From Gemmatimonadota bacterium (GTDB lineage: Bacteria > Gemmatimonadota > Gemmatimonadetes > Gemmatimonadales > Gemmatimonadaceae), in assembly GCA_016194585.1 (NCBI GenBank), contig JACQBG010000034.1:1-50146 (forward strand): a DNA stretch of 50,146 nt, written 5' to 3'. Within the stretch, counting starts at the first letter, position 1. The number at the start of each line of letters is the position of its first letter. Shown piece after piece: positions 2,495-8,853 of this stretch. The notes beneath the pieces are model-generated. The model did not search any database. It was given only the letters and a program-made list of their open reading frames with translations, and was not told where the DNA came from. Made by a program: the position numbers and the translations under genes.

Positions 2495-2514
2495 CTAGCA
2501 CTACTTCGCCACTT
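2495..2514. repeat. Left terminal inverted repeat of element 1
   Basis: CTAGCACTACTTCGCCACTT: CTAG border plus a 16-bp terminal repeat, matching 6626-6645 and the complement of 8834-8853 exactly over 20 bp. Confidence 0.85.
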
Positions 2515-2572
2515 TTCGTGATGCTGTTCCGGTTGGAGTCGTCATTTCGGTGACAATCACCGGAGCGAGTGG

Positions 2573-3920
2573 ATGCTCCCACGTCAGGCCGCAGGGCGGG
2601 ATGTCGTAGGTTGGGTCGAGGAATTACATCGCTGGCTCGCACCGTTTCTCGCGGCGCTCGGGCACAAGGGGCGCCGTCGATGGGCGCCGGTTTACCTACA
2701 GGGTCTGCTCGGACCCGGGGACCGCAAGAGCGTCCAGCCCATGGCCGCACGCGTGGCGCCCGCCGATCACGAGCAGTTGCACCACTTCATCGCCACCTCG
2801 GCGTGAGATCCGGCCCCCCTCCAGACCGCGCTGTCGCACGAGGCCGAGCGCCTGGTGGGCGGGCCGGACGCCGTCCTGATCATCGACGACACGTCGCTCC
2901 TCAAACAAGGGACGCACTCGGTGGGCGTGACGCGCCAGTATTCCGGACAGGCGGGAAAGCGCGCGAATTGTCAGACCATGGTCTCCCTCACCCTCGCGCG
3001 ACGTGAGGTGCCAGTGCCGGTTGCTCTGCGTCTGTTCCTCCCGGAAGAGTGAACGCAGGCTCCCACTCGACTTCAACGGGCGAACGTGCCACCGGCCGCG
3101 CGCGCCTATCGCACCAAAGGCGCGATTGCGCTGGACGAGCTCGACCGTATCCGTGCAACCGGTGTCACGTTTGGCATGGTGCTGGCGGACGCGGGTTACG
3201 GCGGCAGTGCCGCGTTTCGGCAGGCGCTCACCGCACGGAAGCTGACGTGGGCCGTGGGAATCGTTCGCACACAGAAAGTCTTCCCAGCACAAGTGCGGTT
3301 GCGGATTCCGCGATTCGTCCGAAGGCGACCTCGCCGGCACGGCATCCCGTCGCACGTCAGCCGCGGCGCGGACGTGGTGCTCGCCACAGCCCGCTGGCGG
3401 TCGGTGAGTTGGCGGACCGGGACACGCGGGCCGTTGCACGCGAAGTTCGCGGCCGTGCGCGTACGCGTCGCCGATGGTCCGCAAGCGTCGAAGGGTCAGC
3501 ATCTGCCGGGCGACCTCGCCTGGTTGGTCGGCGAATGGCGTAGCAACGGCGAACGGAAGTATTACCTCACGAATCATCCAGCCGGAACACCGCTCCGTAC
3601 GCTGGCGGCGGCGATCAAAGCGCGGTGGGTGTGTGAGCAGGCCCACCAGCAAATGAAGGAAGAACTCGGACTCGATCATTTCGAAGGGCGCAGTTGGCTG
3701 GGCCTGCATCACCATGCGCTGTTCACGATGCTCGCCTTCACGTTTCTCCAGCACCTGCGCCTGCGTGCGAGCGGCAGGAAAAAAAACGACCGTCGCGGCG
3801 CCACCCCCGCAGCCCACGCTTCCGGCGATTCGCCGGGAGCTCCTGATCGCACTGCATGCGCCGCTTCATCTCCGGTGTCGCGCGTGCGGCGCGCACATCG
3901 GATATCACCGGCAACCGTGA
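2573..3920 (+). pseudogene. IS701-family DDE transposase, inactivated by two stops and a frameshift
   Basis: One frame runs from ATG 2573 with family-typical blocks WAPVYLQGLL, PDAVLIIDDTSLLKQGTHSVGV (first catalytic Asp), MVLADAGYGGS (second Asp), YYLTNHP and EELGLDHFEGRSW (Glu). It is broken by TGA at 2804-2806, where relatives have Trp (SA-W-DP), and by TGA at 3050-3052, again at a usual Trp (EE-W-T). Both fit TGG to TGA changes. Near the C-terminus a run of eight A (3779-3786) throws the frame; the expected tail KKTTVAAPPPQPTLPAIRREL continues in the next frame to TGA at 3920, as if A7 had become A8. With catalytic blocks preserved, decay looks recent. UGA recoding is an unlikely alternative, because neighbouring genes end normally in TGA. 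Confidence 0.85.
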
Positions 3921-4198
3921 GGCGCGTAGCGCGGAAGCGCGCGTCCCTGTCCTGAAAAGGGCCGATGCTGGGCCGACAACGCCCGGACCGTCACTCGAGC
4001 GACAGCCTCTATTGAGACACGCCTTGCGTGACCAGACGACTGCATCATGGCGTGTGCACGTCGAGTGTTTCGGAGAGAAGAAGATTCATTCGCCGCCATC
4101 CGCTTCCATCAATCGTAAAAGGCGGCTGAGTTTCGCCGGTCTTGCTTGGGCCGACGTGAGCTTCGTTGCTGGAATCCACCGCCCGTCGTGAGAACCGC

Positions 4199-5521
4199 AT
4201 GATTCTGGATCCAAAAGCGCTCGACGTGCAGGGACAGCGCGAGCGCCGATGGTCGGCACGTCTGTTTCTCGTGGGCGTCTCGGTCGCGGTCGTCGCACTA
4301 CTTGCCGTGGCGTGCCGCGATGTAAGGCCCACGGAGGGCATCATGGCGGTTGGCCTGAAGCCGAAACCCGTGTGCTTCTCCAATCCGGACCACACTGCCT
4401 GCATCTGCCCGCCAGGAACGGTTGGTACGTGGCCTAACTGTAGCTTCGAAGAGGCGCCCCCGGTCGTCACCGGCGACACGGCTAAAGTCTGGTGCACGCC
4501 GCACACGCTTACGCGAGGGGACAGTGTAGGCTGCCGAATCTACGTTGGGCGACAGCGACGATTCCGCATCATCGACGAACAGGGCAGAGCGCTCGACGCC
4601 GCATCGGGACTGACGAGCGCTGGACAGGACGATTCACTGTATGCAGCCGGCGATACTGCGCGCTGGTCTGGATCCGTGGTCGTATCCACGATAGTGACGG
4701 TTAAGGTCAGCATGGCGGATTCGACCGGACGTTCGTTCCTGATCCTGCCTGTCACGGCCGACACGGTAAACGTGCAAGCTCGAACGTTCGCCCAGTACGC
4801 TCTTGCCAATCCGGCACATGAATATCACTGGGTCGAGCCGCAGACGATGACTCCGTATCCGGCGCACTATAGGCGAGACGGTTCCGCGGTCATGACGTTC
4901 GGGAGATTTAAGTCTTCCGAAGTAGGAATGTTCACGGAACTCACGGATTCAGTGGCCAATTACAGCAAGCAGCTTCAGGGCGGACCGAACGATGGACTCT
5001 CATACATCGTCGCACGACCACCGATCCGCGATACGTCGGAGACGTGGGTGCATCCCGGACTCTATGGCGGCTTGCTGTGGAGTCGGGCGGCCCTCTGGTA
5101 CAGAGACCAGTCCGGCGGGACCTTCATGTGGCCGGGGACTCCACCGGGCAGGGTCACGAAGTGTGATGCGAACGGCGTGCGCCGTCTGAGATCTGAGACG
5201 CTCCGGCATGAGGGCCTCGACTACGGCGGCGATTCGCACTATCAGCGACTCGCATCGTTCCTGCTGCAGCGGACCCTCCCCACGGTCATGGAGCGCACCG
5301 TCGTGAAGGGGTCGATTCGGGATCTCAGGGAGAGGATGCGATCCTCGGTGGACAGCGGCCTCTTCGACCTTCAGGATTCGCAGAGCGCGTGGGAGAACGA
5401 GGACTATCCCCGCGTCTGGGGAGCGCGAGTTCCAAATCGCGTGCCTATCGACTCCGGGGCCATTCAGTGTTTCGTTTACATTCGACGCTCGCTGATCGCG
5501 CCGCCGCCGCCCCTGCCATGA
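4199..5521 (+). CDS. Putative lipoprotein with EGF-like Cys cluster, unknown function
   Basis: From ATG 4199 the protein has a basic N-region, a hydrophobic segment (about residues 21-38) and the lipobox LAVAC with Cys39, so it is probably exported and lipid-anchored. A TTG at 4166 in the same frame would place 11 residues more before it. Just after the signal is CFSNPDHTACICPPGTVG...C, spaced like an EGF-type CxCxxGxxG cluster. The remaining ~380 residues (RHEGLDYGGDSHYQ near the end) match no family I recognise. It is a passenger of element 1 and directly precedes another exported-protein gene; codon use is visibly less GC-biased than the chromosome around it. It ends in a poly-Pro tail. 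Function unknown. Confidence 0.6.
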   Translation: MILDPKALDVQGQRERRWSARLFLVGVSVAVVALLAVACRDVRPTEGIMAVGLKPKPVCFSNPDHTACICPPGTVGTWPNCSFEEAPPVVTGDTAKVWCTPHTLTRGDSVGCRIYVGRQRRFRIIDEQGRALDAASGLTSAGQDDSLYAAGDTARWSGSVVVSTIVTVKVSMADSTGRSFLILPVTADTVNVQARTFAQYALANPAHEYHWVEPQTMTPYPAHYRRDGSAVMTFGRFKSSEVGMFTELTDSVANYSKQLQGGPNDGLSYIVARPPIRDTSETWVHPGLYGGLLWSRAALWYRDQSGGTFMWPGTPPGRVTKCDANGVRRLRSETLRHEGLDYGGDSHYQRLASFLLQRTLPTVMERTVVKGSIRDLRERMRSSVDSGLFDLQDSQSAWENEDYPRVWGARVPNRVPIDSGAIQCFVYIRRSLIAPPPPLP

Positions 5522-8155: not shown

Positions 8156-8490
8156 GCGTCCGACGGGGGCGGGGTGGCCGAGTTGGGTGTTGCGCGGAGC
8201 GAGCGTGCCGCGTCGCGCGGCACGAGCACGACGTCGAGGCCCAAGTCCGCGAGCACCTGGAGCGTGAGGTCGAGTTGCGACCCGCCCGCACCGCGCTCCA
8301 AGTCGCCGAGCATGCTGACGCTCACGCCGAGTCGGGATGCGGCGTCGACCTGCCGGCCTAGCGTGTCGGCGCGCACGGTGCGGACGACGTCGCCGACATC
8401 AGTTGGGGACACGACGCACAAGCCGCGACGAGCGACGTCGCGGGCGGGCGTTCGCAGATGCTCGAACTCAGGTCTGGTGCGTCGAGGCAT
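8152..8490 (-). CDS. hipB: HipB-like XRE-family antitoxin
   Basis: A 112-residue protein with a helix-turn-helix (about residues 35-85: LGRQVDAASRLGVSVSMLGDLERG, then the LTLQVLADLGLDVVLVP strand typical of HipB-type regulators). It should bind HipA, neutralise it and repress the operon. The N-terminus is 20-30 residues longer than in short HipB proteins, and the Pro/Ser-rich C-terminus ends in the ATGA overlap with hipA. ATG 8490 is preceded by a purine-rich AAGAGA. Two copies of a TAGTGTCTC-type site lie just upstream. Confidence 0.85.
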   Translation of the reverse strand: MPRRTRPEFEHLRTPARDVARRGLCVVSPTDVGDVVRTVRADTLGRQVDAASRLGVSVSMLGDLERGAGGSQLDLTLQVLADLGLDVVLVPRDAARSLRATPNSATPPPSDA

Positions 8491-8533
8491 AGTGTCTCTT
8501 GGCTAAATACTCGATAGGAGATATAGTGTCTCC
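8488..8533. promoter_or_regulatory. hipBA promoter region with two operator-like repeats
   Basis: GGAGATATAGTGTCTCC (8517-8533) is an imperfect palindrome, and ATAGTGTCTC recurs at 8489-8498 over the hipB start. The region between and upstream (CTAAATATGCTAAAACACAG) is markedly AT-rich and suits a promoter. The spaced repeats fit cooperative autorepression by HipB. Confidence 0.5.
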
Positions 8534-8833
8534 TGTAGTTCTAAATATGCTAAAACACAGATACAGTAAAATCAAGAGCTAAAGTGGCCATTGGAGCTTT
8601 AGCTGTAGTTCGACAAACACAACGTCACTCGAACCGATCCACCGCCAAGATACGATCTCCACTGCAGCAGTATTCCGGGACCTATGCCCTCGCGGCGCTC
8701 CTCCCCGACTCGATCAGAATCCATCGAGACCAGTAAGAGACGGCCCAACATTCGGTCCTGATGGTCAGATAGAGTCGAGAACGCAGCGCGCGCTGTATCA
8801 AGAGCGGAGCCCTCGCTTCCCACACCGGATGAG
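8534..8833. other. Non-coding right flank of the hipBA cassette
   Basis: AT-rich near 8540-8600, then mixed sequence. A 74-codon minus-strand frame at 8599-8823 has no ribosome site or recognisable motif. I see no supported gene. Confidence 0.5.
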
Positions 8834-8853
8834 AAGTGGCGAAGTAGTGCTAG
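8834..8853. repeat. Right terminal inverted repeat of element 2
   Basis: AAGTGGCGAAGTAGTGCTAG, the exact reverse complement of 2495-2514; CTAG is the outer border. Confidence 0.85.

Follow-up and report, generated by a model that had tools for sequence, protein, structure and literature searches.

How did matching inverted ends come to lie back to back in a bacterial genome, and do they bound one mobile element or two? This question is raised by DNA from a Gemmatimonadota bacterium of the family Gemmatimonadaceae (assembly GCA_016194585.1, contig JACQBG010000034.1). We refer to the whole analysed stretch of 50,146 nt as the window, and we studied the block at positions 2495-8853 within it. 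Our analysis leads us to hold, with good though not complete confidence, that this block is a two-member array of mobile units of the IS701 type, a family of insertion sequences (IS). Unit A (2499-6625) would be a former IS701 element with passenger genes and unit B (6630-8849) a mobile insertion cassette (MIC).

Matching ends and CTAG borders in the window

The end sequence CACTACTTCGCCACTT is present on the plus strand at 2499-2514, where it forms the left terminal inverted repeat of unit A, on the plus strand at 6630-6645 as the left repeat of unit B, and on the minus strand at 8834-8849 as the right repeat of unit B. The right terminal inverted repeat of unit A, its inner end, lies on the minus strand at 6610-6625 and reads CACTACTTCGCCACAT, which matches at 15 of 16 positions with the mismatch at position 15. 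Across all four ends 14 bp are identical, and across three of them all 16 bp. CTAG lies outside every end, at 2495-2498 (left target duplication of A), at 6626-6629 as a single copy common to A and B, and at 8850-8853 (right target duplication of B). The end of A, the common CTAG and the start of B form a perfect 32-bp palindrome at 6612-6643, laid out as 14+4+14. The repeated ends, the CTAG outside them and the palindrome had been noted in an earlier reading of the DNA (the original prediction), and we confirmed them and their positions. Its description of the 16-bp ends as identical holds for three ends and not for the inner end of A.

The end pattern matched the window five times compared with 0.12 matches expected from shuffles. 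The fifth match, at 2783 with three mismatches, was set aside as chance. When a 20-mer was searched with up to three mismatches across the whole 3.34-Mb genome there were six matches, namely the four ends in the window and a diverged inverted pair on contig C38 with ends 5.9 kb apart; a control pattern had no matches in the same genome. The original prediction had proposed a search for further CTAG-bounded copies, and the C38 pair was the one that emerged.

CTAG as the target of IS701-type ends

Published IS701 ends follow the consensus ---YACT-Y--YR and are accompanied by a 4-bp target duplication (De Palmenaer et al., PMC2266710). The four ends of A and B match this consensus at 7/7 positions. 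All ends described here match at 5-7/7 when CTAG is placed outside the element versus 0-2/7 when it is included. The alternative that CTAG is part of the element was rejected from this register and from an empty site for the C38 unit. In genome G017 this site reads GTGCCGCG-CTAG-GCCGATAGCGG, with a single CTAG, and is resolved to the base. The flanks of the C38 unit, joined with one CTAG, align end to end to G017 over 703 bp (86% identity), spanning the 5.9-kb insertion. In G017 the left gene terminates within this CTAG (its end reads CGC TAG), and its right-hand neighbour begins directly afterwards. Genomes G008 and G006 are also empty at the C38 site but have no CTAG there. Because the empty site in G017 has one CTAG, which is the decisive test, CTAG is the target, is duplicated as 4 bp upon insertion and lies outside the element.

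CTAG adjoins the outside of nearly all tabulated ends, whether from IS701-type units, related insertion sequences or an element in Myxococcales described below. TTAG takes its place on one side of the C38 unit and on one side of an element in G139; a related IS701 element in G113 has CTAG on both sides. The original prediction took YTAR to be the target of IS701 elements and CTAG to be duplicated on insertion. This is supported by the consensus register, the CTAG borders and the C38 empty site, and by the transposase match of unit A.

For the window itself, CTAG at both borders is consistent with a 4-bp target duplication, which is base-resolved for the C38 unit rather than here. The empty site expected for the block is CTGGCTT-CTAG-GTGTGGTC. 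We sought it in all 18 genomes of the same genus and found a colinear arrangement in G006, where the same two neighbour genes are present and the 6.36-kb block is missing. The proposed comparison with a relative was borne out for the absence of the block and not for the exact junction, beside which the sequence is not conserved.

A degenerate transposase and two passengers in unit A

Unit A consists of a transposase relic and two passenger genes. The relic (2573-3920, plus strand) was assigned from family matches, reading frames and alignment to the IS701 family. It scores 383 bits against the NCBIfam model NF033540 (cut-off 150) and is full length apart from two stops; it also matches PF13546, with two TGA codons inside the match. 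These in-frame TGA codons lie at 2804-2806 and 3050-3052, each where homologues carry tryptophan. A run of eight A residues (3779-3786) carries a frameshift, and from there the conserved C-terminus is read in a different frame up to a stop at 3918-3920. Because of the two TGA codons and the frameshift we regard the transposase as non-functional and unit A, judged from its reading frames, as a dead member of the IS701 family. Apart from the two TGA at conserved tryptophan codons the frame is open up to the A8 run. These TGA stops most likely reflect decay and, less probably, UGA readthrough. This is the only transposase of its type found with the DDE_5 model in the host genome.

The first passenger, P1 (4199-5521, plus strand), encodes a lipoprotein-like protein with a VACRD.. 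N-terminus and has a homologue in the C38 unit (51% identity over 117 amino acids). The second, P2 (5539-6405, plus strand), encodes a secreted protein. Neither P1 nor P2 matched any Pfam or NCBIfam family. To the left of the unit, at 2333-2410 of the window, is a G-rich stretch of ~70 bp of the AGGGGG type with ~20 more copies in the host genome and others in G017.

A probable hipBA cassette in unit B

Unit B contains a hipA gene and a hipB-like gene, both on the minus strand, and nothing else recognizable. Gene, Pfam and NCBIfam scans found no transposase in it. The hipA gene (6860-8155) matches the toxin domains HipA_C (7.8e-39) and Couple_hipA (9.5e-19), both above cut-off, and the NCBIfam scan also returned couple_hipA. 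The hipB-like gene (8152-8490) overlaps hipA by 4 bp. Its position and this overlap fit the role of an antitoxin, and its match to couple_hipB (1.1e-6) is under the curated cut-off. Unit B has the features of a MIC in that IS inverted repeats surround passengers, a transposase is lacking and CTAG is present on both sides.

The sequence GAGACACTAT occurs three times in the 50-kb window and all three copies are within unit B on the minus strand. One is near the left end of the unit (GAGACACTATCTCCG, 6714-6728) and two, together covering 8484-8532, are at the hipB start (GAGACACTATGCCTC, 8484-8498) and just upstream of it (GAGACACTATATCTC, 8518-8532). From their sequence and placement, these repeats look like candidate HipB operators at both sides of the unit, one of them distant from the promoter.

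The stretch directly right of unit B (8854-9297, ~440 bp) has a GC content of 57% compared with 70% for the whole window. We sought a third unit in it and found no partner end; the stretch may be a decayed further unit.

The same ends around single genes in other genomes

We searched 288 genomes of the order for these ends. Clean inverted pairs were found in G010 (one), G012 (two), G056 (one) and the host genome, giving five clean loci. The four pairs in the three other genomes each surround one short gene of a different kind, encoding a DUF4440 lipoprotein, a Zn-ribbon-like protein, a 142-amino acid secreted protein and a phosphatase-like protein. A transposase match was sought in these three genomes and none was found. 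The original prediction named two findings that would refute it, the ends occurring elsewhere without pairing and relatives carrying the block as one conserved piece, and neither applies. Unpaired ends proved rare, with one in G012 and one in G243, and the relative G006 is without the block. The two solo ends (L108, G012:C120:27135, and L110, G243:C2:30343) have no partner, are bordered by GTAG and CTAA, and are probably decayed units.

In a Myxococcales metagenome-assembled genome (MAG; JANYHK01, G288) the same 18 bp, CTAG included, start a plain multi-copy IS701 element. At least eight left ends lead into the transposase N-terminus and three right ends follow the transposase C-terminus, all with CTAG (loci L018-L022, L024, L025, L029 and L093-L103). 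The right ends differ at one base, position 13 of the end. We sought the interior of the transposase in the binned genome and did not find it, so that the two ends alone are readable. Since a plain IS701 element carries the same ends, the end belongs to IS701 elements. The equal ends in Myxococcales and Gemmatimonadaceae suggest either transfer between phyla or strong conservation of the end. No exact ends were found in viral contigs, and the Myxococcales left end had no matches to plasmids.

Unlike units share one CTAG

Three of the four units in other genomes adjoin a second unit that is bordered by CTAG and belongs to the IS5 or IS630 type. In G012:C3 an IS701-type unit is followed by a GNAT acetyltransferase unit with IS5-type ends and then by an IS630 element, with one CTAG at each junction. 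In G010 an IS701-type unit adjoins a RibD-type reductase unit with IS5-type ends, and in G012:C141 another adjoins an IS630-type unit whose passenger is a Big_2 lipoprotein. The unit in G056 is solitary. We dropped the Big_2 lipoprotein region (G012:C141, 13657-14459) as a unit of its own; its right end alone matches IS630 ends, and a passenger located behind the IS630 copy is the better interpretation. The second end family, IS5-type and GAGCCTATCTCACAAACCC-like, also flanks single genes at CTAG (the RibD-type reductase and GNAT genes); its loci are L007 3795-7882, L026 976-1745 and L105 5170-5859.

These junctions bear on the nature of the palindrome. Back-to-back ends a few bases apart are typical of transposition intermediates of the IS3, IS21, IS30 and IS256 families (PMC3299598 and general background), and the palindrome could on this basis be a tandem dimer or minicircle from a single transposition reaction. 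We consider this highly improbable. The contents of A and B are unrelated, and the other abutting pairs mix IS families (IS701 with IS5-type, IS701 with IS630), which is impossible from one reaction. A perfect palindrome within a draft assembly might also be an artefact of that assembly or, alternatively, a regulatory site. These ends recur at element borders across several independent assemblies, and the other junctions join non-repeated sequences with no evident cause for misassembly, leaving this explanation with practically no credence. The original prediction of two separate units in tandem, with a single CTAG between them, is instead supported by other pairs of units that also share one CTAG, and by sister genomes in which such ends pair around short separate units.

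A more serious alternative is that the block arrived as one composite transposon through its outermost ends, the inner palindrome being a relic of an earlier fusion. The outer ends (2495-2517 and 8831-8853) pair at 22 of 23 positions, so A and B could move together, and the C38 unit pairs an A-side left end, complete with a transposase relic, with a B-type right end (61 bp shared at 85% with the right-end segment of B, 8794-8853, plus strand). However, A and B each have their own complete ends around self-contained gene sets, and the units in sister genomes are separate and short. The C38 locus is itself complex, with outer IS701-type ends, an IS5 element (L007 3795-4664, NCBIfam IS5) and a further IS701-like start at 4661; this layout suggests several CTAG units nested together. 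We therefore regard a single composite arrival as unlikely and prefer a two-member array. Other points besides the pairing of the outer ends weigh against an array. The empty site of the window in G006 is not base-resolved, the left homology ending 17 bp before the end of CTAG, and the ~440 bp right of B are missing from G006 too. There are only five clean loci, all in draft genomes or MAGs. None of G000, G010, G012 and G056 yielded a live IS701 transposase with these ends, so present mobility of the cassettes is only a possibility.

The arrays in G012:C3 (L105 4010-6857) and G010:C212 (L026 976-2423) occupy one chromosomal CTAG. Their flanks are 96% and 92% identical while all units between them differ; in both species the left flank ends GTTCTGACTA and the right flank starts CTAGTGCATG. 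This site is a hot spot of cassette turnover. An empty site for it was not found in our search; G005 has the right-hand gene with a different left neighbour. Chains of single-gene cargo with a fixed, crossover-like CTAG might recall an integron, or gene cassettes moved by some other site-specific recombinase. We give this idea very little weight, as each unit has inverted ends on both sides rather than one attC per cassette, and these ends, which IS701 elements carry, agree with the IS701 consensus. Nothing indicated that the chains require an integron-type integrase, with integrase genes not searched for.

CTAG is rare in these genomes (0.45 per kb, ~1500 sites per genome), and for this reason the shared border in four of the five clean loci is not expected from random insertion at CTAG. 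Even with 60 border sites among ~1500, the probability by chance is ~1e-5 or less, to be taken as an order of magnitude since the calculation assumes independent loci and leaves out selection against insertion within genes.

The array in G012:C141 lies between a gene for an MmeI-type restriction enzyme (Pfam; L106 9444-12356) and one for a protein with a SIR2-like-looking N-terminus (L107 1954-3081) that has no Pfam match. These surroundings are possibly a defence island.

A proposed route to arrays

We propose that an IS701 transposase would recognize paired ends of ~16 bp whatever lies between them and join them to CTAG cut with a 4-bp stagger. The CTAG would be duplicated on repair, giving each unit a fresh copy at both borders. 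At these border copies a further unit, from whichever CTAG-using family, could insert safely; the earlier unit would stay intact, and end-CTAG-end junctions would result. On this reading arrays build up through the renewal of CTAG at every insertion, and they would form because border CTAGs are safe. CTAG-written stop codons, as at the C38 site and in the right-hand gene of the hot spot, could likewise take an insertion without harm, as the stop is preserved by the duplication. Unit B and the other cassettes may have been moved in trans by an IS701 transposase; from their ends and contents, they look like trans-mobilized derivatives of IS701 elements. We infer that the array in the window grew by one insertion at a time, and either A or B may have come first.

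A broader and more tentative proposal, about which we are evenly divided and lean slightly to doubt, is that in Gemmatimonadaceae three or more unrelated transposase families (IS701, IS5 and IS630) dock at CTAG in common. Regenerated CTAG would stack single-gene cassettes with different ends into hot-spot arrays that turn over between species, an integron-like way of capturing genes that would need target-site regeneration alone. The loci described here are a clear case of IS701-type cassettes with one gene or gene pair each (a probable toxin-antitoxin pair, lipoproteins, enzymes) in an understudied phylum, and the same ends are present in Myxococcales. They suggest a simple rule, namely that each insertion copies its target, by which unlike elements could pile up without damaging one another, and this rule predicts the sites of new insertions.

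Comparison with known systems

The units resemble the IS701 family in transposase family, terminal consensus and 4-bp duplication (PMC2266710, PMC8024623). Published IS701 elements are 1.4-1.55 kb long (PMC2266710); unlike these, the units described here carry passengers or passengers alone, have a near-strict CTAG target and form arrays with shared CTAG. MICs are also known, including MIC231 and the qnrD and qnrS2 MICs, and the IS231A transposase has been shown to move MIC231A1 in trans (PMC3913671, PMC5444012, PMC3129680). As here, these have IS ends around passengers, no transposase and a target duplication. They differ in that IS231 belongs to IS4 with duplications of ~10 bp, whereas here the ends are of IS701, the cargo changes with each copy and abutting units have one target between them. 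Unit A is like transporter insertion sequences (a term used in PMC3129680) in having a transposase and passengers between one pair of ends and unlike them in that its transposase is dead.

Each part thus has a precedent, as IS701 ends and MICs (PMC3913671, PMC3129680) or as CTAG-directed IS630. In the open-licence literature searched we found no description of IS701-type cassettes with a different single gene in each copy, of arrays of MICs, or of arrays in which units from different families are linked by a single CTAG common to both. As general background, IS630 elements prefer the TA within CTAG, and IS630 units border cassettes in G012; unlike plain IS630 targeting, the border CTAGs here are shared with IS701- and IS5-type units. 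Finally, the arrays are like those of integrons in that mobile units of one gene each are strung together at a single chromosomal site and vary in content between species. They are unlike them in having no asymmetric site of the attC type, in chaining that would come from regeneration of CTAG, and in chains that include three or more IS families.

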